A DNA stretch of 64,000 nucleotides, taken from Eudoraea adriatica DSM 19308 (lineage in GTDB: Bacteria; Bacteroidota; Bacteroidia; Flavobacteriales; Flavobacteriaceae). Shown piece by piece: positions 1,756 to 58,468 of the stretch (the stretch's first letter is position 1; each line of letters begins with the position of its first letter). The stretch covers positions 372,001 to 436,000 of the forward strand of contig NZ_KB907546.1 of assembly GCF_000382125.1 (NCBI RefSeq), given 5' to 3'. The notes below the pieces were generated by a model that saw only the letters and a list, made by a program, of their open reading frames with translations, was not told the DNA's origin and searched no databases. The position numbers and the translations under genes are program-made.

Positions 1756-2790
1756 TTAGTTGGCTACAGCTTCAATATTTGCTGATTTTACAGTTTGGAT
1801 AATTCTACCTGCAATTTTATAAGGATCACCATTAGAAGCCGGTCTCCTGTCTTCCAGCCATCCTTTCCAGCCTTTTTCAACTGTTATGATCGGAATTCTG
1901 ATAGAAGCACCCCGGTCTGATACACCATAACTGAAATCTTTAATAGATGCTGTTTCGTGCAAGCCCGTAAGTCGTTCTTCATTAAAAGCACCATAAACTT
2001 CAATATGGTCAAGAGCCACTGGTCTGAAGGCCTCACAAATTCTTTCATAAATTTCTTTAGAACCACATGTTCTTAAAGTGGTATTCGAGAAGTTTGCGTG
2101 CATTCCACTACCATTCCAATCTCCTTTAACTGGTTTCGGGTGCAATTCAATATAATAGCCATATTTTTCAGTAAGACGATTCAATAGGTAACGAGCAACC
2201 CAAATTTCATCGCCAGCTTTTTTTGCGCCTTTGGCGAAACACTGAAATTCCCATTGTCCGGGTGCAACTTCCTGATTAATACCCTCAAAATTAATGCCTG
2301 CCGCAATACATAAATCCATATGCTCCTCTACAAATTCTCGTCCCCATGTATACCTTCCTCCTACAGAGCAGTAATATTTACCCTGTGGTCCGGGAAATCC
2401 ACCGCGTGGAAATCCAAGAGGTAAGTCTGTTTCGGTATCCATTAAAAAGTATTCCTGTTCAAATCCAAACCAGAAATCATTATCATCGTCATCAATTTGA
2501 GCTCTATGATTTGATGCGTGTGGTGTTCCATCGGCGTTTAATACTTCAGACATTACCAAAAACCCATTAGCTCTTTCAGGGTCCGGATAAATTGCCACTG
2601 GTTTCAACAGGCAATCTGAGGAGCCTCCCTCGGCCTGTTCGGTTGAAGACCCGTCAAAAGACCATATAGGGCAATCTTCCAATTTACCACTGAAGTCTTC
2701 TTCAATTTTGGTTTTGCTTCTCAATTCTTGTGTTGGTTCATGACCATCTAACCAAATGTATTCTAATTTTGTTTTGCTCATAATCTTCAA
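1756..2790 (-). CDS. glnII: Glutamine synthetase, type II (GlnII-like)
   Basis: Makes glutamine from glutamate, ammonia and ATP in the cytosol. At about 341-344 residues it has the short length of type II (eukaryote-like) synthetases rather than the about 470 of type I. Visible are WSFDGSSTEQAEGGSSD (beta-grasp to catalytic junction), the metal and glutamate site around INQEVAPGQWEFQ, and GDWNGSGMHANFS with the ATP-binding region after it. The start is probably the internal ATG at 2781 (MSKTKLEYIWLDG). It is divergent from a second, unrelated synthetase (GSIII) across a 200-base regulatory region. Its promoter shares two elements with glnK, which suggests nitrogen control. Type II enzymes are usually not adenylylated. 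Confidence 0.93.
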   Translation of the reverse strand: MKIMSKTKLEYIWLDGHEPTQELRSKTKIEEDFSGKLEDCPIWSFDGSSTEQAEGGSSDCLLKPVAIYPDPERANGFLVMSEVLNADGTPHASNHRAQIDDDDNDFWFGFEQEYFLMDTETDLPLGFPRGGFPGPQGKYYCSVGGRYTWGREFVEEHMDLCIAAGINFEGINQEVAPGQWEFQCFAKGAKKAGDEIWVARYLLNRLTEKYGYYIELHPKPVKGDWNGSGMHANFSNTTLRTCGSKEIYERICEAFRPVALDHIEVYGAFNEERLTGLHETASIKDFSYGVSDRGASIRIPIITVEKGWKGWLEDRRPASNGDPYKIAGRIIQTVKSANIEAVAN

Positions 2791-2816: not shown

Positions 2817-2964
2817 CAAAAATAAATTATTTTATAGATATCTATTAAAAATCAGGGGGTATTTATCAAAAAAAACGACATAATTATTAACACCCCTATT
2901 TTTTTGAGGGGATTTTGCAATATTTATATAAAATGACGATTATTCTATGAAATGTTTAATTTTG
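2817..2964. promoter_or_regulatory. Divergent nitrogen-type control region between glnII and GSIII
   Basis: The minus-strand -7 TATTTTTG for glnII is at 2817-2824 and the plus-strand -7 TAATTTTG for GSIII at 2957-2964. Between them are AGGGGGT (2854-2860) and the inverted repeat CCCCTATTTTTTTGAGGGG (2893-2911). Measured from the plus-strand CAAA edge of the glnII -7 box, AGGGGGT starts at offset 37 and CCCTATT at offset 77. Exactly the same two offsets occur upstream of glnK near 25.4 kb. The repeat lies about 46 bases before the GSIII -7 element, so one site could serve both genes. The binding protein is unknown. Confidence 0.65.
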
Positions 2965-2991: not shown

Positions 2992-5178
2992 ATGTCCATA
3001 ATAAGATTCAGTGCAGTAAAAGAAAGTTTTCAGCATAAACCACTTGTAATAACAGAAAACGGGCGGCGATCTGAGTTGTTCGGAACACATGTTTTCAATG
3101 AAGAAAAAATGCTGCAGTATCTCACGAAGGATGCTTATCTAAGTGTAAAAGAGGCCATTTTCTCAGGCTCAAAAATTGACAGAAAAATAGCCGATCAGGT
3201 CGCAGAAGCTATGAAAGCCTGGGCTATTTCTATGGGTGCAACGCATTACACCCATTGGTTTCAGCCCTTAACGGGTGCAACGGCGGAGAAGCACGATGCT
3301 TTTTTTGATCTGCTGGCAGACGGAAGAGCTGTTGAAAAATTTGGTGGTGCCCAGCTTGTGCAGCAAGAACCGGATGCTTCCAGTTTTCCCAGCGGGGGTA
3401 TACGCAATACTTTCGAAGCCAGAGGATATACCGCATGGGATCCTACTTCCCCTGCATTCATATATGGAACTACCCTCTGTATTCCAACTATTTTTGTCTC
3501 ATATACCGGAGAGGCACTTGATAATAAGGCACCCCTGTTGAGAGCCCTGCATGCTGTTGATCTAGCGGCTACAGCAGTAGCAAAATATTTTGATAAAAAT
3601 GTTGCCAAAGTTCAGGCAACACTGGGATGGGAACAAGAATATTTTCTTATAGACAAAGCACTTGCTGGTTCGCGCCCCGATCTGGTTCTTACAGGTCGCA
3701 CTCTGGTTGGGCACCTGGCGGCTAAGGGCCAACAGCTGGATGATCATTATTTTGGTGTTATCCCCATGCGGGCTATTAATTTTATGCGGGATCTTGAAAA
3801 GGAATGTACCCGGCTCGGAATTCCTGTCAAAACCCGGCATAATGAAGTAGCTCCAAATCAGTTTGAGCTGGCCCCGGTTTTTGAAGAAGCGAATTTGGCG
3901 GTTGATCATAATTTGCTATTGATGGATATTATGGAAAAAGTGGCCGACAGGCATAATTTTAAAGTACTTTTTCATGAAAAGCCCTTCTCAGGAATAAACG
4001 GATCCGGAAAACACAATAATTGGTCCCTTGCAACAGATACGGGGGTAAATCTGCTAAGCCCGGGTTCTACCCCCATGAAAAATCTGCAGTTCCTGACATT
4101 TTTTGTCAATACTATCAAAGCTGTTGACACTTATGAGGAGCTTCTAAGATCATCAATTGCTTCAGCCAGTAATGATTACAGGTTGGGCGCCAATGAGGCT
4201 CCGCCGGCCATTTTTTCAATCTTTGTGGGAACACAATTAAGCAATGTCCTGGATGAATTGGAAGGGGTGTCCCAGGGCAAGTTGTCACCGGAAGAGAAAA
4301 CAGAGTTAAAACTCAATGTAGTTGGGAAGATACCTGAGATATTGCTGGATAATACAGATAGAAATAGAACCTCGCCATTTGCTTTTACCGGGAATAAATT
4401 TGAGATGAGAGGAGTTGGTTCTAAAACCAATTGTGCAAAACCCATGACCATTCTTAATACTATTGTGGCGAAACAATTGAGGGAATTTAAAAAGGAAGTA
4501 GACGCTTTAATTGACAAAAAGAAATTAAAAAAGGACGAAGCAGTTTTCAATGTTTTGCGGGAATATATCAAATCATCTAAAAGAATTCGTTTTGACGGTG
4601 ATGGTTATAGCACAGATTGGGAGAAAGAAGCGAAAAAAAGGAAATTGAGTAATAACAAATCCACGCCTTCAGCAATTCAGGTAATGACGTCTAAAGAAAG
4701 TCTGGAACTTTTTAATGGCCTTGAGGTAATGAGTACCATAGAAGTTGAAGCGCGGCAGGAAGTTGAATTAGAGACCTATATTTTCCAGACCCAAATTGAA
4801 GGCAGGGTCTTTAATGATTTGGTATATAGTCATATTATTCCTTCAGCTATTGATTACCAAAACAAATTAATTAAAAATGTTTTGGGTTTAAAAGAGATTT
4901 ATGGCGCTGCTCATAAGAAATTATCCGAAGGACATCTCACACTGATTGAACAGATTGCGGAGCATATGGTGGAATTAAAAAAGAATACGGATGATATGAC
5001 CAACGCAAGAAGGGTGGCCAACAAATTAACGGATCTAAACAAAAAAGCTTTCGCTTATTGTGATAATGTTCGTCCTTATTTTGATAAAATCAGATATCAT
5101 TGCGATAAGTTAGAGCAACTTATTGATGATCAGTCCTGGCCATTGACCAAATACAGGGAACTATTGTTTATTAAATAA
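2992..5178 (+). CDS. glnN: Glutamine synthetase, type III (GlnN)
   Basis: A 728-residue GSIII, the large dodecameric glutamine synthetase common in Bacteroidota and cyanobacteria. Marks include the N-terminal GSIII region with FGTHVFNEEKM, ATHYTHWFQPLTG, GWEQEYFLIDK (metal site), TRHNEVAPNQFELAP, and FSGINGSGKHNNWSL (glutamate and ATP site). The C-terminal helical extension is complete to the stop. It opens behind TAATTTTG (2957-2964) and closes with a strong terminator. With GlnII, Amt and PII it gives the cell two unrelated ways to assimilate ammonia. The shared upstream region suggests expression linked to nitrogen status; which of the two dominates cannot be told. Confidence 0.96.
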   Translation: MSIIRFSAVKESFQHKPLVITENGRRSELFGTHVFNEEKMLQYLTKDAYLSVKEAIFSGSKIDRKIADQVAEAMKAWAISMGATHYTHWFQPLTGATAEKHDAFFDLLADGRAVEKFGGAQLVQQEPDASSFPSGGIRNTFEARGYTAWDPTSPAFIYGTTLCIPTIFVSYTGEALDNKAPLLRALHAVDLAATAVAKYFDKNVAKVQATLGWEQEYFLIDKALAGSRPDLVLTGRTLVGHLAAKGQQLDDHYFGVIPMRAINFMRDLEKECTRLGIPVKTRHNEVAPNQFELAPVFEEANLAVDHNLLLMDIMEKVADRHNFKVLFHEKPFSGINGSGKHNNWSLATDTGVNLLSPGSTPMKNLQFLTFFVNTIKAVDTYEELLRSSIASASNDYRLGANEAPPAIFSIFVGTQLSNVLDELEGVSQGKLSPEEKTELKLNVVGKIPEILLDNTDRNRTSPFAFTGNKFEMRGVGSKTNCAKPMTILNTIVAKQLREFKKEVDALIDKKKLKKDEAVFNVLREYIKSSKRIRFDGDGYSTDWEKEAKKRKLSNNKSTPSAIQVMTSKESLELFNGLEVMSTIEVEARQEVELETYIFQTQIEGRVFNDLVYSHIIPSAIDYQNKLIKNVLGLKEIYGAAHKKLSEGHLTLIEQIAEHMVELKKNTDDMTNARRVANKLTDLNKKAFAYCDNVRPYFDKIRYHCDKLEQLIDDQSWPLTKYRELLFIK

Positions 5179-13388: not shown

Positions 13389-16300
13389 ATGAAACAAGAA
13401 ATCGTCTATAAACCAAAGAATAAAATAAGAGTGGTTACTGCGGCTTCTCTGTTTGATGGTCATGATGCCGCCATCAATATCATGCGACGCATTATTCAGG
13501 CTACCGGTGTAGAGGTCATTCATTTGGGCCATGACAGAAGTGTAGATGAGGTCGTGAATTGCGCTATACAGGAAGATGTGAATGCCATTGCAATGACTTC
13601 ATATCAGGGAGGTCATAATGAATATTTTAGATATATGTTTGACCTTTTAAAAGAGCGTGGTGCTGGTCATATCAAGATATTTGGCGGTGGGGGAGGTGTA
13701 ATTCTGCCTGAAGAAATAGAATCCCTCATGAAATATGGAATAACCAGGATATATTCGCCAGACGATGGGCGCACAATGGGGTTGCAAGGAATGATAAACG
13801 ATCTTGTAAAGAAAAGTGATACTCCTGTTCCGCCTCTAAAATTGGATAAAGGAACTACCCTGATCAAGGCGCTAAAGAACAAACAGGCGGGGACAATAGC
13901 ACGGCTGATAAGTCTTGCTGAAAACAGGCCTTCCGAATTTGAAGAACTCTTTTCCAAAATTCGCGGTGAGAAAAATCAGGTCCCGGTGTTGGGCATAACA
14001 GGTACGGGTGGTTCCGGTAAATCTAGTTTGGTTGACGAGCTTGTGCGGCGTTTTTTAAGGGATTTTCCTAAGAAATCCATTGGGTTGGTATCTGTGGACC
14101 CTTCCAAAAGGAAAACCGGCGGTGCTCTTCTGGGAGACCGGATAAGAATGAATGCAATAAATGATGACAGGGTGTATATGCGCTCCCTGGCCACAAGACA
14201 ATCCAATTTGGCTTTATCCAAATATGTGAATGAGGCAGTTGAGGTATTGAAAACAGCCGGATTTGATCTTATTATTCTTGAAACTTCGGGCATTGGCCAG
14301 TCAGATACGGAAATAATTGAACATAGCGACGTATCCCTCTATGTTATGACTCCGGAATTTGGAGCTGCAACGCAACTCGAGAAAATTGATATGCTGGATT
14401 TTGCTGATCTGGTTGCGATAAATAAATTTGACAAAAGAGGGGCACTGGATGCTTTAAGAGATGTAAAGAAACAATATGTACGCAATCAGGGTTTATGGGA
14501 AGCAGATGATGATACATTGCCAATTTTTGGCACAATAGCCTCGCAATTTAATGATCCCGGCATGAACCGTTTATACAAAGCGGTAATGAGGCAATTAACT
14601 GAAAAGGCAAATGCTGATCTGGTTTCAACTTTAGTGGTCAGCAAGGAAATGGATGAGAAGGTATTTGTGGTTCCGCCTTCGAGGGTGCGATATCTTTCAG
14701 AGATTACCGAAAGTATTAATTCTTATGACACAAAAGTGTCTTGTCAGGTTGAAGTAGCCCAGCAATTATATGGAATTTATAAAACTATAGCAGGTCTTTG
14801 CAAGACTAAACCCGGTTTAAACAGTGCGGGAATAAAAGTTTCCGATTCAGATATGCCCGGGGAAGATGAAAAAGATAATTTAATTCAACTTCTATTGGTT
14901 GAATTTGACCGTGTAAAACTCAATTTGGACCCTTATAACTGGCAAATAATCCTTAATTGGAATAGTGTGGTCAAAAGATACAAAGACCCCTCCTATGTGT
15001 TTAAAGTAAGAGATAAGGAGATAAAAATAGACACGCACATTGAGTCATTATCCGGTCTTGCTATTCCCAAAGTAATTTTACCAAGATATAAAGCATGGGG
15101 AGATCTGCTTCAGTGGCGGCTGCAAGAGAATGTACCAGGGGAATTTCCCTATACTTCCGGACTTTACCCTTTTAAGAGGACCGGGGAAGACCCTACACGA
15201 ATGTTCGCCGGCGAAGGTGGACCAGAAAGAACCAACAGAAGGTTTCATTATGTAAGTCTCGATATGCCTGCGAAGAGACTGTCTACGGCATTCGATTCTG
15301 TGACACTTTATGGTAATGACCCGGATCACAGACCCGATATTTATGGGAAGATTGGTAATGCAGGAGTGTCTGTTTGCTGCCTGGATGATGCCAAAAAATT
15401 ATATTCCGGTTTTGATCTTAGTGATCCCATGACTTCAGTGAGCATGACCATAAACGGGCCTGCCCCAATGTTGCTCGGATACTTTATCAATGCCGCAATT
15501 GACCAAAACTGTGAGAAGTATATACATAAAAATGGACTCGAAAAAGAGGTGGAATCAAAAATTAAAACCTACTATGGCGGAAATTTAGAAAACAGACCAA
15601 AGTATGTGGGCAACCTGCCAGAAGGAAATAACGGTCTTGGACTTTTTTTGCTAGGCATAACCGGAGATGAAGTACTTGCACCTGAGGTTTACAACAGCAT
15701 TAAAAAAGAAACTTTAAAAACAATTCGCGGAACGGTCCAGGCAGATATCCTAAAAGAAGATCAGGCTCAGAATACCTGCATTTTTTCAACGGAATTTGCA
15801 TTAAGACTGATGGGTGATGTTCAGGAATATTTTATTCAGAATGAGGTAAGAAATTTTTATTCTGTTTCTATTTCGGGTTACCATATAGCAGAAGCCGGGG
15901 CGAATCCAATCACACAATTGGCGTTTACGCTTTCGAATGGTTTTACCTACGTTGAATATTACCTTAGCCGCGGCATGGATATTAATAAATTCGGGCCCAA
16001 CTTGTCGTTTTTCTTTTCCAATGGAATAGATCCGGAGTATGCAGTAATAGGAAGGGTTGCCAGGCGTATTTGGGCAAAAGCCATGAAAGAAAAATACGGC
16101 GCAGATTCCAGGGCTCAAATGTTAAAATATCATATTCAGACCTCAGGTCGGAGTTTGCATGCTCAGGAAATAGATTTTAATGATATAAGAACCACTTTGC
16201 AGGCACTTTATGCCATTTATGACAATTGTAATTCATTGCATACTAATGCATACGATGAGGCTATTACCACGCCAACAGAAGAATCTGTTCGAAGGGCAAT

Positions 16301-16826
16301 GGCAATACAATTGATTATCAACAAGGAACTTGGCCTTGCTAAAAATGAAAACCCGCTACAAGGGTCCTTCATTATTGAAGAACTGACAGATCTTGTGGAG
16401 GAGGCCGTTTTACTCGAATTTGACAGAATTACCGAGCGCGGAGGTGTTTTAGGTGCAATGGAAACCATGTATCAGCGCTCTAAAATACAGGAGGAAAGCA
16501 TGTATTACGAGACTTTGAAACACACCGGGGAATATCCAATAATTGGGGTAAACACTTTTTTGAGCTCTTCGGGATCTCCTACCATTCTTCCTGCCGAAGT
16601 TATTCGTGCTACTGACAAGGAAAAAGAGCAACAAATTGATACCTTAAATGGTTTACAATTAAGAAATAAGCAAATTGCCCAAAAACAATTAAAAGAACTT
16701 CAGGAAACGGCTATTGAGAATGAAAATATATTTGAAAAACTTATGGAGGTCACTAAATATTGTTCATTAGGAGAAATAACACATGCCTTGTTTGAAGTAG
16801 GAGGTCAATACAGAAGGAATATGTAA
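13389..16826 (+). CDS. icmF: Fused isobutyryl-CoA mutase-type protein with G-protein chaperone (IcmF)
   Basis: 1145 residues in the IcmF order: B12-binding domain (about 1-150, with [10 protein letters not shown] as the DxHxxG cobalamin motif), a MeaB-like GTPase (about 195-430, P-loop GTGGSGKSS, then [21 protein letters not shown]), a linker, and a mutase barrel (about 570-1145). The barrel shows [28 protein letters not shown] and [20 protein letters not shown]. The Phe and Gln placed as in IcmF, rather than the Tyr and Arg of methylmalonyl-CoA mutase, point to isobutyryl/butyryl-CoA or a close branched acyl-CoA as substrate. The GTPase part loads and guards adenosylcobalamin. It needs vitamin B12; no cobalamin genes are nearby. 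Confidence 0.93.
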
Positions 16827-17449: not shown

Positions 17450-17899
17450 TTGAATAACAAAATTGATGACTTAAACTGGCACATACTCAGACTCTTGCAG
17501 AAGAATTCAAGGTTGTCTTTGTCAAATATAGGAAGGGAAGTTGGCCTTACGCCACCAGCTGTGGCAGAGCGTGTCAAAAAAATGGAAGACCTTGGAATAC
17601 TCGAAGGTTTTAATGCAAAAGTATCTTATACCCTCGCAGGTTATCAGCTTAAGGCTATAATTACTTTAAGGGCATTTATGGGTAAACTTAAGCCTTTCCT
17701 TGAAATGGTTAAGACATTCGAAGAAGTAATTAATTGCTACCGGATTACGGGTGATGAGAATATTATTATGGAAGTGGTCCTGAAGGATCAGGCTCACCTG
17801 GAAAGGTTTATCGATGAACTTATCAGGTATGGGGAAACCAGGACACATATTATTCTGTCTGATATAGTTTCTGATGCACCGATAAAACGACTTAAATAA
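17450..17899 (+). CDS. Lrp/AsnC family transcriptional regulator
   Basis: A 149-residue feast/famine regulator. Residues 4-50 form the AsnC-type helix-turn-helix (DDLNWHILRLLQKNSRLSLS, then EVGLTPPAVAERVKKMEDLG). Residues 65-140 form the RAM ligand-binding and oligomerisation domain with CYRITGDENIIMEV. The start is TTG at 17450: the HTH begins at once after it and no in-frame ATG precedes it. A 12-codon ATG frame (17419-17457) overlaps the start in another frame. The effector is probably an amino acid, and the targets are unknown. Confidence 0.9.
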   Translation: MNNKIDDLNWHILRLLQKNSRLSLSNIGREVGLTPPAVAERVKKMEDLGILEGFNAKVSYTLAGYQLKAIITLRAFMGKLKPFLEMVKTFEEVINCYRITGDENIIMEVVLKDQAHLERFIDELIRYGETRTHIILSDIVSDAPIKRLK

Positions 17900-22443: not shown

Positions 22444-23613
22444 CTAGAAGGCAAATACAGCAGCTAGCAGGAATGAAGACAAGTTTTTAGATGTTTCTAA
22501 ATCTTTATTTACAAATAAAAATGAATCATCTGAAGCGTTGTCAAATCTTATTTCCGGAATCAACCTAAGATATTTGCCAATTGTAACATTTCCTGAAAGG
22601 GTGACAGCGAATACGCTGGAATCTTCAACTCCGGTGCCAATGGCGCCAAAATCACCAATTTCTTCAAAATATTCACCTCTTAAACCAAGGGCAAAGGTCT
22701 CAGAAAAAGTATATTGTGGATATAATGCAACACCGTAGAACCCAAGATCCTCTGGCGTATCTTCATCAAATCCAACATCCCCGGTATCCTGATAGGTGGC
22801 ATTAATTCCCAAATAAAAGTCTTCTCCAATATTAAATCCACCTGTATAATCTATCTGAAAAAGTGCCTGAATGTCCGGTTCTACAATGACTCCATCATTG
22901 AGAATTTTGTCGGCCCCCTGTTTTCCGTACAAAAAGTTAAGATATTGACCTGCATAACCAAGCTGGGCTCCAAAACTTAAATCGCTTTGCCTGGCCGAAG
23001 ATGTAAAATCAGTCTGATTCAAAATGGCTACCATAGCCGACCAGTCGTTTCCTAAATCAAAATCTGCTTTCAGACCACTGTGGGAAAACGGGCCGTAGGA
23101 GAACATATAAGAAGTGCTATAGTTAAAGTTTGCTACAGGTGAAATAACTTCATACCCCAAAAATGTGTTAAAGTTTCCTAAGGTAAGAGTCACTTTATCA
23201 CTAACATTCCAGTACACATACAACTGGTTCACAATGCTGGTAGGTCCTGAATCATTAAATACGGCATCCTCGCCTCTTGGTCCAAATACGAGGTCAGCGA
23301 CAAAACCTACTTTTTTGCCTTCGTATCCTGCTATTAGATTAACCATACCTATTGAAAAACCGTTATCATTAGCAAATGATGTGCCGGGTGCACTTGGAGA
23401 TATTTCGCCTATTTCCGTCCCACCTTCTACAATTGGCACTACACTGTTTAATCCGTTGAAATTAGTACGATAATACGCATCTACAGAACCACTAAAAGAG
23501 ATTTTCTTTTTTTCTTCTTCCTCTTCTTCCTGAGCAAAAGTGGCCGTTCCCAGCGCTAGCAATGCTAAAAGTAAAAGATTTTTTATGTAACTTGTATTTT
23601 TAAATGTTTTCAT
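22444..23613 (-). CDS. Outer-membrane beta-barrel porin (OmpL-like, porin-2 type)
   Basis: A 389-residue protein with a signal peptide (NLLLLALLALGTATFAQ) and an acidic run of Glu after it. The mature part has alternating strands throughout (SFSGSVDAYYRTNFNG, NLIAGYEGKKVGFVADLVFG, GLRGEYFEEI) and ends in Phe (LLAAVFAF), as outer-membrane barrels do. It resembles the porin-2/OmpL-like family seen in Bacteroidota. It follows amt in the same direction with a 121-base gap that holds a strong hairpin and no -7 element, so it is probably partly co-transcribed with glnK-amt. A role in uptake of nitrogen compounds is inferred only from that position. Confidence 0.85.
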   Translation of the reverse strand: MKTFKNTSYIKNLLLLALLALGTATFAQEEEEEEKKKISFSGSVDAYYRTNFNGLNSVVPIVEGGTEIGEISPSAPGTSFANDNGFSIGMVNLIAGYEGKKVGFVADLVFGPRGEDAVFNDSGPTSIVNQLYVYWNVSDKVTLTLGNFNTFLGYEVISPVANFNYSTSYMFSYGPFSHSGLKADFDLGNDWSAMVAILNQTDFTSSARQSDLSFGAQLGYAGQYLNFLYGKQGADKILNDGVIVEPDIQALFQIDYTGGFNIGEDFYLGINATYQDTGDVGFDEDTPEDLGFYGVALYPQYTFSETFALGLRGEYFEEIGDFGAIGTGVEDSSVFAVTLSGNVTIGKYLRLIPEIRFDNASDDSFLFVNKDLETSKNLSSFLLAAVFAF

Positions 23614-23734: not shown

Positions 23735-24988
23735 TTAATGTTGATTCATTCTAAAGTCGGCATAAGCGTCCATTCCGTGTTCCGCCAGGTCCAGCCCATC
23801 TATTTCTTCTTCTTTTGGAACTCTTATTCCTATTGTTTTCTTAAGAGCAAAAATGACTATGAAGGCCGAGATACAACAAAATGCGCCAACTGCGGCTACG
23901 CCGGTTAATTGATAGATAAACTGCTGGCCTCCGGCAAGATCTCCGAATATTCCAACAGCCAGTGTTCCCCAGATTCCACATATAAGGTGAACGGTAACTG
24001 CTCCTACAGGATCATCCAACCGAATCCTGTCAATAAAGGCTACACCCAGTACTATTATTACACCGGCAATAAGACCTATAATTACGGCCTCTGTAGGTGA
24101 CATTAGATCCGCCCCTGCTGTAATCCCTACCAGACCCCCCAAAATTCCGTTGAGGAACATGGTTAGGTCCATATTCTTATACATAATGGTAGATAACGCT
24201 GCGGCTCCAACACCACCGGCAGCAGCAGCCAGACAAGTAGTTACAAGTACCAGTGATGTAGTAGCTGGGTCTGCAGATAATACAGAACCACCATTAAAGC
24301 CAAACCAGCCTAACCATAGGATTAAGACCCCCGCTGTTGCCATTGGGATACTATGGCCTGGGATAGCCTTAGGTTCGCCATCTTTACCAAATTTGCCTAT
24401 TCTGGCTCCCAAAAGGTAAATTGCTATTAATGCTCCCCATCCTCCGACGGAATGTACCAAAGTAGATCCTGCAAAATCATAAAAACCTCCATCATCTCCT
24501 CCTAGTGTAGAAAGGAATCCGCCTCCCCATTGCCAGGAACCGGCTATAGGATATATTAGACCTACATAAATGATTGTAAAAATCATAAACGGACCTATTT
24601 TAATACGCTCTGCAACAGCACCTGAAACTATAGTAGCTGCTGTGGCTGCAAACATTCCCTGGAACAGAAAATCTGTCCACCAGGTATAACCTCCATCTGC
24701 ATATTCGGGAGTCATCCCGTTATCCGGGGCGTCAATACCAAATCCTGCAAATTCGAAAATACCCATGGATCCTTCTTCAAATCCGGGATACATCAAATTA
24801 AAACCACCTATATAATACAAGAGTAGTCCTACGGTGATTATAAAGATATTTTTAAAAAGAATATTGATTGTGTTTTTTTGTCTGGTGAGGCCAATTTCTA
24901 AAAAGGCGAACCCCGTATGCATGAAAAATACAAGGGCGGTACATACCATCATCCAAACATTATTAGCTGTAAATAATCCTGCTTCCAT
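23735..24988 (-). CDS. amt: Ammonium transporter
   Basis: A 417-residue Amt/MEP/Rh channel with 11 membrane helices. The pore histidine pair is visible: FAGSTLVHSVGGWGAL (first His) and GAVTVHLICGIWGTLAVG (second His). The recruitment-site region WTDFLFQGMFAATAATIVSGAVAERI is typical. It carries ammonium into the cell when supply is low and is gated by PII. The gene follows glnK by 27 bases. It feeds the two glutamine synthetases encoded near 2-5 kb. Confidence 0.97.
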   Translation of the reverse strand: MEAGLFTANNVWMMVCTALVFFMHTGFAFLEIGLTRQKNTINILFKNIFIITVGLLLYYIGGFNLMYPGFEEGSMGIFEFAGFGIDAPDNGMTPEYADGGYTWWTDFLFQGMFAATAATIVSGAVAERIKIGPFMIFTIIYVGLIYPIAGSWQWGGGFLSTLGGDDGGFYDFAGSTLVHSVGGWGALIAIYLLGARIGKFGKDGEPKAIPGHSIPMATAGVLILWLGWFGFNGGSVLSADPATTSLVLVTTCLAAAAGGVGAAALSTIMYKNMDLTMFLNGILGGLVGITAGADLMSPTEAVIIGLIAGVIIVLGVAFIDRIRLDDPVGAVTVHLICGIWGTLAVGIFGDLAGGQQFIYQLTGVAAVGAFCCISAFIVIFALKKTIGIRVPKEEEIDGLDLAEHGMDAYADFRMNQH

Positions 24989-25015: not shown

Positions 25016-25354
25016 TTAGTTAATTCCGGCGTGGCCGTTTTCTTTGGTTCGAATTCTGTAGGCCTGCAGCACATCGGAAACAAAGATTTTGCCGTCCCCT
25101 ACATTTCCTGTATAAGCGGCTTCCAATACTGTGTTCACGGTTCTTTCCAGAAATTCGTCGGATACTACTATTTCGAGATACCTTCTCTGGATGTCTGTAG
25201 TACTGTATGAAATACCACGATAGACATGACCTTGTTTTTCATTTCCAACTCCAGTTACATCCCAGTAACTAAAGAAATTTACCTCAATTTCATGAAGTGC
25301 GTTTTTCACGTCATCAAATTTGGATTTCCTGATAATTGCTTCAACTTTTTTCAT
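25016..25354 (-). CDS. glnK: PII nitrogen regulatory protein (GlnK-type)
   Basis: A 112-residue PII trimer subunit that senses ATP/ADP and 2-oxoglutarate. It opens KKVEAIIRKSKFDDVKNAL, ends with VGDGKIFVSDVLQAYRIRTKENG (B- and C-loop ligand sites), and has a short, unusual T-loop (GVGNEKQGHVYRGISYSTTD). YRG, with the Tyr that is uridylylated in enteric bacteria, is kept. Location directly before amt is the usual arrangement for GlnK, which binds and blocks Amt. No uridylyltransferase gene is in the window. Its promoter shares two spaced elements with that of glnII. Confidence 0.95.
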   Translation of the reverse strand: MKKVEAIIRKSKFDDVKNALHEIEVNFFSYWDVTGVGNEKQGHVYRGISYSTTDIQRRYLEIVVSDEFLERTVNTVLEAAYTGNVGDGKIFVSDVLQAYRIRTKENGHAGIN

Positions 25355-25379: not shown

Positions 25380-25475
25380 CAAATATATATTAAATAAATT
25401 AAGACCCTAAAAAAAGAGGGGGTGGTTTGGTAATTTTTATACTTATTATAATTTGACCCTATTATTTTTAAGGGT
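25380..25475 (-). promoter_or_regulatory. glnK-amt promoter with nitrogen-type elements
   Basis: The minus-strand -7 TATATTTG is at 25380-25387. Upstream lie AGGGGGT (25417-25423), preceded by CCCT (25405-25408), and an inverted repeat CCCTATTATTTTTAAGGG (25457-25474). From the plus-strand CAAA edge, AGGGGGT is at offset 37 and CCCTATT at offset 77, exactly as upstream of glnII. The two boxes are 40 bases apart, close to four helical turns. Confidence 0.65.
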
Positions 25476-25635: not shown

Positions 25636-26007
25636 CTATAATAATCTGGAAAGCCAAAGGCCCACTACCACTGCGAGAATACCAACCGCAATACTACTAA
25701 GGGTGTAAAAAGAAAACTGTAGTATTTGACCGGATTGAAGTAGACCATGGTTCTCGAGTGTAAATGCAGAAAAAGTAGTAAATCCTCCGCAGAACCCTGT
25801 CGAAAGGATCAGGATTTGATCTTTTGAAAGAAGATTCCCTTTCATTGATGCGCCCAGAATAAAACCAATTAATAGACAGCCAATAATATTGACTATAAAG
25901 GTGCCGAGGAAAAAATTATGAAAATAATCGTTGAAAGTTTTACCAATAATAAAACGAAGAAAGCTACCAAACCCACCTCCAATAAAAACAAGTAAAAATT
26001 GTTTCAT
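25636..26007 (-). CDS. crcB: Fluoride exporter FluC/CrcB
   Basis: A 123-residue fluoride channel subunit with four membrane segments. The signature GFCGGFTTFSAFTLENHGLL (about residues 71-90) holds the pore Phe and polar-track residues, and the opening GGGFGSFLRFIIGK is typical. Members form antiparallel dimers that let toxic fluoride out. It lies 17 bases after the stop of a 59-residue membrane protein gene and probably shares its promoter. No fluoride riboswitch-like sequence was seen upstream. Confidence 0.95.
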   Translation of the reverse strand: MKQFLLVFIGGGFGSFLRFIIGKTFNDYFHNFFLGTFIVNIIGCLLIGFILGASMKGNLLSKDQILILSTGFCGGFTTFSAFTLENHGLLQSGQILQFSFYTLSSIAVGILAVVVGLWLSRLL

Positions 26008-56236: not shown

Positions 56237-58468
56237 CTAATATCTTAAAAGGACACCAATAGAGGCCCCGAAAGGATGTCCGGGGCGCAAACCGGCCGGC
56301 ACACGGGATACTGCATATGTCTCATCCAACAAATTAATGATTCTTCCATTGATACTTAAATGATCATTCAGATGGTACTTTGCTGAAAAATCTATTATAA
56401 AACTCGAGGGTACTGATTCATTAGCGGGTATACTTCCTATTCCGGCTTTGGTTCTAAAGGCGCCATTAAATCTTCCGCTGAGATTGAGCTCATAAGAAGG
56501 ATGTTCTAAAGAAATCAGGGTATTAAACTGATGTTCGGGGATATAAGGCATTTCATCACCCTTGGTAACTTCTCCCCATATATCATTCGGGCTATCAAAA
56601 CTACTTTGGAATTCTGCATGGGTATACGTATAGGCAAAAGTTATGGGAAGTCTTAGTTTCTTGTGATTGTTCAGGGCATTATAATTTAATAATACCTCTA
56701 ATCCTGTTACATCTACTTCACCCGCGTTAAACTGTTCCAAACTTCCGGTACCTCCGGTAGCAGCCAGATCACTACCTAAAAGATTGCTATAGTCATTATA
56801 GAATCCTATCAACTCTCCGGAAAAGTTTCCCATTGCAAACCGGGAACCCAGCTCATAGTTTATACTTTCTTCGGGCTTTTCACCTTCTTTACTGGTTGGT
56901 GGTGAAAATCCTTTGTGAACACCGCCAAAAATCGAGATCTGGTTGAAATTATAATTCAAACCCATCCCGGGAATCCAGACGTTTACCTGGTTTTCGCGGG
57001 TGGAGAGCTCAATTTCCTGTCGAGAGACGTCATTCTTGCCATAGTCTTTTCGCCCCAGAGAAATAGACTCATATCTTAATCCGGGTGTAATGGTGAGGTT
57101 TCTGTATTTAAGCTTATATAACATATAAGCCGAGAATGCACTGGCATCGCTAATCCGATTCGCATCAGTACCTGGTGTGCCTGCGGTAGTCAGGTTCATA
57201 ATACCATTATTAATTCCGTAACCATCAACCCATTGAAATCTGTCTTCTTCATCTACATGAAAACGAGCGCCCAACTCCAGATCATGAAAAGTGTTATCCC
57301 CACTCCAATGGTAATCAAATTTGGTTTGAATACCTTGTGAAACATATTTTCTATTATTGGCTTTTACTAACAGGGCATCGGCTCCTTCATCCTGGTTGCC
57401 GGCAATAACATTATAATATTCTTCATTGGTTAAAGGGTCTTCAAGAATATTTGCAATGCTTCTGCGGTCTCCATTTAATGTTACTGCATCCAGTTTGTAC
57501 CAGTTTCTGCTAAATCCATTGTAATAAGCTGTAGTGGTGATATTAAAATAATCGCTGAAATCTATGACATAGGTGGCCTGCATCTGGATATGATCATTAG
57601 TCATCTGATCTTGCTGAGAACCGGCATATCTCCTGAATGGGGATATTTCAAAATCGTTATCCGTAAGCCCAACATAAGTTTCATTGGACTCCTCATCGGA
57701 ATATTGAAATTTCATATCCAGTATATGTTTTAGTTTGGCTGTTGGAGATGAATTAAATCTGAATTTAGCCAAAATATCGTTCTTGTCAAATCCTGTATTA
57801 CCACCATTATCTAACTTTTTAAAGCCATCAGAATTGAAGTTCAAATATTCAATAATATATCCAAAACGCTCTTTACTGTCTCCTAATTTTAACTGTAGCT
57901 CTCCGCTATTGTAATTGCCATAATTTGCCAAAAGAGATGCATGAAAAGTATCAGGGATGGCCGAGGAAATCATATTTATTGCTCCACCGGTAGTAAAGGG
58001 CCCATATTGTACCTGGCTGCTTCCTTTTAGAATTTCTACTGCCTGCATACGGGCTATTGAAGGAAAATAATAAGCAGCCGGAGCACTGTAGGGAGCAGGT
58101 GCTATTAGTACTGCATCTTCCATCAAAGTAATCTTGGCGCTCCTTTCGGGAGAGGTACCCCTCAAACTAATATTTGGGCGTAGTCCAAAGCCGTCTTCTT
58201 CAACAAGAGTTACTCCTGGTACAGATCGTAAAACACGATTAATATCCGTATAATTATACTTTAGTAATTCTGGTTGTGATACATAGGAGGCAGCTCCGGT
58301 TCGGTTCCTCGCCTGAAATTTGCTGCCCAGTATTACATTGGCAGCTAATACTACTTCATCTAGTTTTATCAGGTTAGAATCCTTGGCCTGAGTAATAAGG
58401 CGTGTTGATTGCCCATAGGATAGATTCAAAAAAACACCAAGGAATAAAAGGGAAATATAGCTCTTCAT
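56237..58468 (-). CDS. TonB-dependent receptor, FecA-like
   Basis: 743 residues: signal peptide (KSYISLLFLGVFLNLSYGQ), plug domain (about 35-160) with YTDINRVLRSVPGVTLVEED, LRPNISLRGTSPERSAKITL and LIAPAPYSAPAAYYFP, then a 22-strand barrel ending with an aromatic residue (GVLLRY). The plug closely follows FecA-type ferric-citrate receptors. No N-terminal signalling extension and no FecIR genes are present, so it is a simple transporter. An inverted repeat TTATTTA-GAT-TAAATAA upstream may be an iron-responsive operator. Substrate probably a ferric complex. Confidence 0.9.
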   Translation of the reverse strand: MKSYISLLFLGVFLNLSYGQSTRLITQAKDSNLIKLDEVVLAANVILGSKFQARNRTGAASYVSQPELLKYNYTDINRVLRSVPGVTLVEEDGFGLRPNISLRGTSPERSAKITLMEDAVLIAPAPYSAPAAYYFPSIARMQAVEILKGSSQVQYGPFTTGGAINMISSAIPDTFHASLLANYGNYNSGELQLKLGDSKERFGYIIEYLNFNSDGFKKLDNGGNTGFDKNDILAKFRFNSSPTAKLKHILDMKFQYSDEESNETYVGLTDNDFEISPFRRYAGSQQDQMTNDHIQMQATYVIDFSDYFNITTTAYYNGFSRNWYKLDAVTLNGDRRSIANILEDPLTNEEYYNVIAGNQDEGADALLVKANNRKYVSQGIQTKFDYHWSGDNTFHDLELGARFHVDEEDRFQWVDGYGINNGIMNLTTAGTPGTDANRISDASAFSAYMLYKLKYRNLTITPGLRYESISLGRKDYGKNDVSRQEIELSTRENQVNVWIPGMGLNYNFNQISIFGGVHKGFSPPTSKEGEKPEESINYELGSRFAMGNFSGELIGFYNDYSNLLGSDLAATGGTGSLEQFNAGEVDVTGLEVLLNYNALNNHKKLRLPITFAYTYTHAEFQSSFDSPNDIWGEVTKGDEMPYIPEHQFNTLISLEHPSYELNLSGRFNGAFRTKAGIGSIPANESVPSSFIIDFSAKYHLNDHLSINGRIINLLDETYAVSRVPAGLRPGHPFGASIGVLLRY

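Follow-up and report, generated by a model that had tools for sequence, protein, structure and literature searches.

Twin palindromic sites upstream of nitrogen-assimilation genes in Bacteroidota, the probable operator of a putative and probably activating regulator

General nitrogen control is a known kind of regulation, and several described systems are close enough for comparison. NtcA of cyanobacteria is a Crp-type protein that recognizes GTA-N8-TAC and acts as an activator near -35 before glnA, glnB, amt, and the nitrate/nitrite genes. GlnR and TnrA of Firmicutes bind TGTNAN7TNACA and control glutamine synthetase, P-II/amt, and gltAB, and NtrC of Proteobacteria, which functions with sigma-54, binds GCACC-N5-GGTGC in distant enhancers of -24/-12 promoters. 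Besides these nitrogen regulators, the type-2 sites of Rrf2/IscR proteins are characterized by CC...GG arms.

In the present study, we analyzed a window of 64,000 nucleotides from Eudoraea adriatica DSM 19308, in which the promoters of glnII and glnK carry the same pair of elements. Counted from the plus-strand CAAA edge, which a sequence check placed at 2817 for glnII and 25380 for glnK, both promoters have AGGGGGT at offset 37 and CCCTATT at offset 77; the positions and equal offsets claimed in an earlier note on this DNA were exact base for base. The note had described two different elements, and the two-element architecture common to both promoters stands, but the elements are copies of one palindrome, since a second inverted repeat, ACCCTAAAAAAAGAGGGGGT at 25404-25423, has AGGGGGT of glnK as its right arm. 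The glnK promoter has two full copies (25404-25423 and 25456-25475). The glnII promoter has a full distal copy (2893-2911) and a degenerate proximal copy reduced to its outer arm (2854-2860). The distance of 40 bases, or four helical turns, was an edge-to-edge measure; from C-run start to C-run start, the copies are 52 bp apart in both promoters, which is near five turns and preserves the proposed location of the two sites on one DNA face. The assignment of both genes to ammonium assimilation agrees with Pfam, which identified a type II glutamine synthetase and a P-II protein in addition to a type III glutamine synthetase and an Amt protein. The features are listed below, with sites and boxes as read from the sequence.

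1756 to 2781, minus strand: glnII, type II glutamine synthetase, a target (Pfam Gln-synt_N/C on the open reading frame 1756-2790; ATG at 2781 read from the sequence)
2817 to 2824, minus strand: -7 box of glnII, TATTTTTG (TAnnTTTG); TA..TTT is (nearly) invariant in 33 aligned promoters
2854 to 2860, no strand: proximal site of glnII, outer arm only (ACCCCCT on the minus strand)
2893 to 2911, no strand: distal palindrome of glnII/glnN, CCCCTATTTTTTTGAGGGG, between the divergent genes
2992 to 5178, plus strand: glnN, type III glutamine synthetase, divergent from glnII and sharing its operator region (Pfam GSIII_N)
22444 to 23613, minus strand: BBP2-type porin, at the end of the glnK-amtB-porin run (Pfam BBP2)
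23735 to 24988, minus strand: amtB, ammonium transporter (Pfam)
25016 to 25354, minus strand: glnK, P-II signal protein, at the head of the target run (Pfam)
25380 to 25387, minus strand: -7 box of glnK, TATATTTG (also from the 33-promoter alignment)
25404 to 25423, no strand: proximal palindrome of glnK, ACCCTAAAAAAAGAGGGGGT
25456 to 25475, no strand: distal palindrome of glnK, ACCCTATTATTTTTAAGGGT

These sites resemble those of NtcA in that a palindrome is located near -35 of a housekeeping-type promoter and precedes the same kind of targets, but they differ in having the form ACCCC-N9..11-GGGGT and in being usually paired five turns apart; the arms in the aligned promoters are CCC(C)/GGG(G) and do not conform to GTA-N8-TAC. 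A palindrome with an A/T-rich middle and like targets are shared with GlnR/TnrA, the sites of which, in contrast, have no CCCC/GGGG arms and no fixed twin spacing. The aligned promoters do not conform to TGTNAN7TNACA; as in GlnR/TnrA systems, a small MerR protein (~109 aa) without a ligand domain is present in the genome. The same class of target genes and two in-phase sites are also found with NtrC/sigma-54, whereas the sites here adjoin a TAnnTTTG box, which lies at a fixed distance and has an invariant TTT in the 33 aligned promoters, which in this respect do not look like -24/-12 promoters. To the extent that the target genes and the TAnnTTTG box indicate it, the proposal of a nitrogen-linked Bacteroidota regulator with a site looking unlike that of sigma-54/NtrC appears to be correct. 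Rrf2/IscR type-2 sites have similar CC...GG arms at about the same separation; however, an Rrf2 protein is missing in some of the site-bearing genomes here, one of which is 100% complete (G018).

The window alone, without conservation in relatives, gives suggestive support for the twin element. First-order shuffles of the two regions contain the dual element, loosely defined, in 0.05% (glnII region) and 0.6% (glnK region) of cases, but since it occurs by chance at a mean of 1.73 per shuffled window, and since one further loose match is present in the window itself near 56591, inside an open reading frame, the evidence from this stretch is no more than suggestive. The plain palindrome CCCT-N8..10-AGGG is not enriched genome-wide (110 matches per strand vs 108 in the control), and, therefore, only the twin arrangement is informative.

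Among relatives, 60 genomes were searched for glnK and glnII, and 30 loci of each were read. Both palindromes are present at the same distance directly upstream in 16 of the 30 glnK loci, a count of sites visible by eye, and in several of the other 14 the upstream stretch is the coding sequence of the preceding gene. For glnII, a fixed rule found the distal palindrome together with the outer arm of the proximal site in 18 of 29 readable loci; among the remainder, one is degenerate (L060) and ten have no sites, and the thirtieth (L073) was unreadable. The glnII promoters without sites belong to G011, G013, G029, and seven order-level relatives, and glnN promoters without sites to G031, G032, and G158. 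Across sites, spacer, and -7 box, 33 promoters align, L060 and L017 (with a site overlapping the start codon) having been excluded, and a sequence-only model, R1, was built from this alignment. Two strong loci were detected by R1 in the 3.9 Mb genome of E. adriatica, with E=5e-20 for glnK and E=5e-17 for glnII; other matches below 0.002 are the reverse strand of these two places, and a third distinct place follows only at E=0.005.

Within the family, 138 of 199 genomes (137 of 198 genera) have R1 matches at E<=1e-5, and absence from orthologous promoters, named beforehand as a result that would speak against the twin element, is refuted by this count together with those for glnK and glnII. The family count is a lower bound, as shown by a re-search that took in 51 of the 61 genomes missed by R1, 34 of which have glnN, and the site criterion, applied to 180 bp, found sites in 30 of these 34 promoters (4.3 in shuffles). 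The four without such sites are those of G158 (no site seen), G196 (the stretch looks coding), G126 (runs farther upstream), and G198. A further 20 glnN promoters, including those of order-level relatives, yielded 17 with sites (2.3 expected), the exceptions being G031, G032, and G059. The sites precede glnN itself in other genomes where no glnII adjoins, and half-sites in either orientation precede some glnN genes.

In a set of 20 R1 match regions, fetched with a preference for unusual loci, one region precedes gltB and one ald, two genes named from their N-terminal sequences, and the other 18 are upstream of glnII/glnN, of glnN by itself, or of a glnK/porin/amt run. Over 395 genomes of the phylum, R1 has matches in 22, among which 20 belong to the same family (E. 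adriatica included); beyond the family, one order-level match precedes amt and one class-level match is located between nirB-like and cobA-like genes. In Flavobacterium-like genomes, R1 matches also occur before a second type of amt and between urtA-like and ureA-like genes (all of these names are readings of protein sequences). In E. adriatica itself, ald is a third target, with a weaker copy and C-runs 53 bp apart; this site was picked from weak R1 rows, at E=0.05 and ranked below several rows without the arrangement, and among the weak rows read (L080, L081, L082, L085, and L086), L086 (ald) alone has the arrangement.

We also scanned 84,980 species genomes with the pattern ACCCC-N9..11-GGGGT-N28..36-ACCCC-N-W8, which includes neither a gene nor a -7 box; as its design was based on sites observed earlier upstream of nitrogen genes, the scan is blind to genes and not to the motif. 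At least 119 stretches were found, and the matches listed comprise 107 from Bacteroidota, ten from other named phyla, and two unclassified; flanking genes were called by comparison with reference proteins. Among these matches listed, 104 of the 107 Bacteroidota stretches have a nitrogen-assimilation gene directly downstream that reads away from the site, as do none of the ten from other named phyla and one of the two unclassified (glnN). Equal frequency before unrelated genes, the other result named beforehand as speaking against the twin element, is not what these matches show. By gene, the 104 consist of glnK alone (27), glnN alone (26), gltB with a porin (16), glnII with glnN (12), ald (11), a porin alone (4), glnII alone (2), a second amt (2), glnK with gltB (2), gltB alone (1), and nirB (1). 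The Bacteroidota exceptions among the matches listed are L406, L419, and L372, a cut locus with neighbors that match the surroundings of glnK. Hosts outside Flavobacteriales in the same matches include Bacteroides, Carboxylicivirga, Hymenobacter, Pontibacter, and Saprospiraceae, with named gut hosts such as Bacteroides cellulosilyticus and B. clarus. The search in Flavobacteriaceae that the earlier note had proposed accordingly found the sites, and their reach is wider than anticipated, extending to ald, gltB, amt, nirB, and probably urt/ure, as well as to other Bacteroidota.

Regarding the geometry, the pattern allowed C-run spacings of 47-57 bp, and the 105 nitrogen-gene sites among the matches listed (104 from Bacteroidota and one unclassified) are distributed over 51 (7 sites), 52 (34), 53 (45), 54 (15), and 55 bp (4), with 79 of the 105 at 52 or 53 bp; the spacings of the other 14 stretches are scattered from 48 to 56 bp. 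In the same matches there are 135 promoter directions, 99 with a -7 box, and where a proximal site is followed by TAnnTTT[GA], the TTT of the nearest such box starts 38-39 bases past the C-run start in 46 of these 99, a fraction that reaches 23 of 26 in glnK directions. When the Bacteroidota -7 box is placed as usual, the centers of the palindromes are estimated to lie near -37 and -89, and the proximal site is estimated to cover the -33 region of the TAnnTTTG promoter. A reading of the sequence found no TTTG at -33 in the glnII and glnK promoters of the window.

Taken together, the sites appear with high probability to constitute the twin operator of a Bacteroidota nitrogen-assimilation regulon, bound by a putative sequence-specific protein that is probably an activator. 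What was observed are the sites with their geometry, conservation, and target genes, and from this we infer protein binding, one regulator for all targets, activation, and an answer to nitrogen status, the last being suggested by the set of target genes. A sequence-specific protein, most likely in the form of dimers or a larger assembly, would bind both palindromes, the consensus being ACCCC, 9-11 A/T-rich bases, and GGGGT, and because the C-runs are 51-55 bp, or five helical turns, apart, both bound units would face the same side of the DNA. The proximal unit would occupy the position of the -33 element of the housekeeping-type TAnnTTTG promoter; since glnII and glnK have no TTTG at -33, the protein most likely replaces this contact and recruits RNA polymerase, and the distal unit may add cooperativity. 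Activator layouts of comparable form are known from tandem CRP sites and NtcA. The predicted regulon comprises glnK-amtB-porin, glnN, glnII, gltB, amt, ald, nirB, and probably urt/ure. The half-sites that precede some glnN genes in either orientation suggest that a single arm may be sufficient, and they argue against a strict dimer model, which leaves them unexplained. In Prevotella ruminicola, glnK, amtB, and asnB were reported to be higher with ample ammonium rather than under scarcity (PMC5552732), and the putative regulator may, therefore, respond in either direction.

A repressor acting on the same twin operator is a possible reading, although a clearly less likely one. Dimers at both sites, 52 bp apart, would bind jointly or bend the DNA and block -33 until the nitrogen status changes; the overlap of the proximal site with the -33 place fits this, and two in-phase operators are a repressor layout as well. 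However, the glnII and glnK promoters, lacking TTTG at -33, look in need of help, and the state of glnII, in which the distal palindrome is intact and the proximal one reduced to its outer arm, is what may be expected of an activator that touches the polymerase.

We incline, with less assurance than for the operator itself, toward an old general nitrogen regulator of Bacteroidota's own that acts through the twin operator from marine flavobacteria to gut Bacteroides and may be the small MerR protein or another conserved protein. Full-text searches of the open literature (without subscription papers and preprints), judged by the titles and abstracts of the matches listed, found no general nitrogen regulator of Bacteroidota and no such operator, in agreement with the earlier note, which knew of no described operator of this form; the operator and regulon are new as far as the literature was searched. 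In the main text of a 2025 paper on the regulatory network of B. thetaiotaomicron, none of the words nitrogen, glutamine, glnN, gltB, and amtB occurs (PMC12596196). If the reading is true, Bacteroidota, a phylum that is dominant both in the gut and in the coastal ocean, would possess a counterpart of NtrC, NtcA, and GlnR of other phyla for the control of ammonium assimilation. With the operator given exactly, along with its geometry and its targets in named species, a single DNA fragment may serve to capture the regulator, and the regulon may be predicted in other genomes.

The small MerR protein (~109 aa, G000:C2:41371-41697, L434:372-698) may be the regulator, as a Bacteroidota counterpart of GlnR/TnrA, but we consider this identification unlikely. 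It is present in 57 of 60 relatives, being missing in G007 (60% complete), G008 (82% complete), and G051 (0.3 Mb), and in 50 of 51 further genomes, which makes it available in every genome with observed sites apart from the incomplete G007, a distribution that suits a widespread regulon; PF13411 in any form is present in 59 of the 60. Its size and the palindromic operator are reminiscent of GlnR/TnrA. Within the family, 5 of 6 site-less genomes lack the wing Asn (GNR) vs 7 of 63 site-bearing ones (Fisher p=0.0004), a comparison in which the wing position was chosen after looking, 22 of 98 rows were excluded because their site status was undecided, and G198, G126, and G059 were entered as site-bearing by eye despite failing the glnN site criterion. 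On the other hand, the protein also occurs in site-less genomes; seven order-level genomes with site-less glnII promoters keep GNR, and p becomes 0.027 when they are counted. A test that took the tree into account had two independent pairs and no power. In the six loci read, it lies between an M23-peptidase-like and a LemA-like gene, and these neighbors, with a TPM-like gene, suggest envelope work, and its closest solved structures are general MerR proteins, with GlnR/TnrA matching weakly (E 0.03-0.44).

Similarly doubtful is the proposal that the regulator is an Lrp/AsnC protein with the helix AAIHQRLRKLE, the gene for which lies close to ald in relatives of the Muricauda/Maribacter type. It recurs in 11 of the 119 loci among the matches listed, at a median of ~3 kb from the site, but does not adjoin the other targets. 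The other recurrent neighbors in these loci, Cur-like (5) and BlaI-like (6) genes, likewise offer no convincing partner, and inspection by eye showed no regulator gene next to the nirB site in G601 or the urea cluster in G373. Crp-type proteins are weakened as candidates: the Crp-type HTH PF13545 is present in 53 of 60 genomes and absent from the site-bearing G045 (92% complete), which speaks against them, and it is also absent from five genomes with site-less glnN or glnII promoters (G013, G032, G041, G043, and G054), which points the other way. A Crp-type gene that resembles the carbon regulator Cur/BT4338 adjoins glnN in Bacteroides (L370:347-1045 and L371:5421-6119), and genes for carbon and nitrogen control may thus be neighbors there. 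The published site of Cur/BT4338, wwwTATGTTnTAnAACATAwww, belongs to carbon-limitation targets, and Cur/BT4338 was rejected since this site differs, in a comparison by eye, from those before Bacteroides glnN (PMC3878776, PMC6989115). Rrf2 was also rejected, with no match in the site-bearing G018 (100% complete), G045, G055, and G057.

It is very improbable that the regulator is the Lrp/AsnC protein encoded in the window between glnII and glnK (17450-17899); this Pfam Lrp/AsnC protein lies inside the glnII-glnK block in 10 of 10 genera, which were selected for linkage, but it was rejected because the single-contig genomes G023 and G034, with strong sites, have no match at E<=1e-20, and neither do G017, G019, and G025. 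Equally improbable is the explanation that the repeats form RNA hairpins (terminators or leaders) rather than protein operators: GC arms with an A/T loop resemble terminators, but the repeats are upstream of the -7 box, 12 of the 107 Bacteroidota sites among the matches listed lie between divergent glnII and glnN and 16 of 107 between divergent gltB and porin genes, where nothing ends, and a fixed spacing of 51-55 bp and a fixed distance to the -7 box are meaningless for a terminator.

Aside from the operator, the surroundings of its targets show several recurrent features. A BBP2/OmpL-like porin accompanies glnK and amtB, and in many genera it directly follows the operator, frequently with gltB diverging on the other side; it may form a pore in the outer membrane for ammonium or small solutes. 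The block of 20-30 kb from glnII to glnK, at 1756-28133 of the window, contains prfA, pyrF, an Lrp/AsnC gene, and a porin, and its gene content and order are largely kept in ten other genera, picked for glnII-glnK linkage. A CrcB (fluoride channel) gene is located upstream of glnK at 25636-26007, as it is in 10 of 10 linked genera, and a CrcB-like protein recurs in 25 of the 119 loci among the matches listed from the gene-blind scan. The window also encodes a protein of 1145 aa (13389-16826) in which B12-binding, MeaB-type GTPase, and methylmalonyl-CoA mutase domains are joined, as they are in fused IcmF mutases. A second, distant P-II-like protein, with 28% identity to glnK, is encoded elsewhere in the E. 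adriatica genome (G000:C2:52324-52638).
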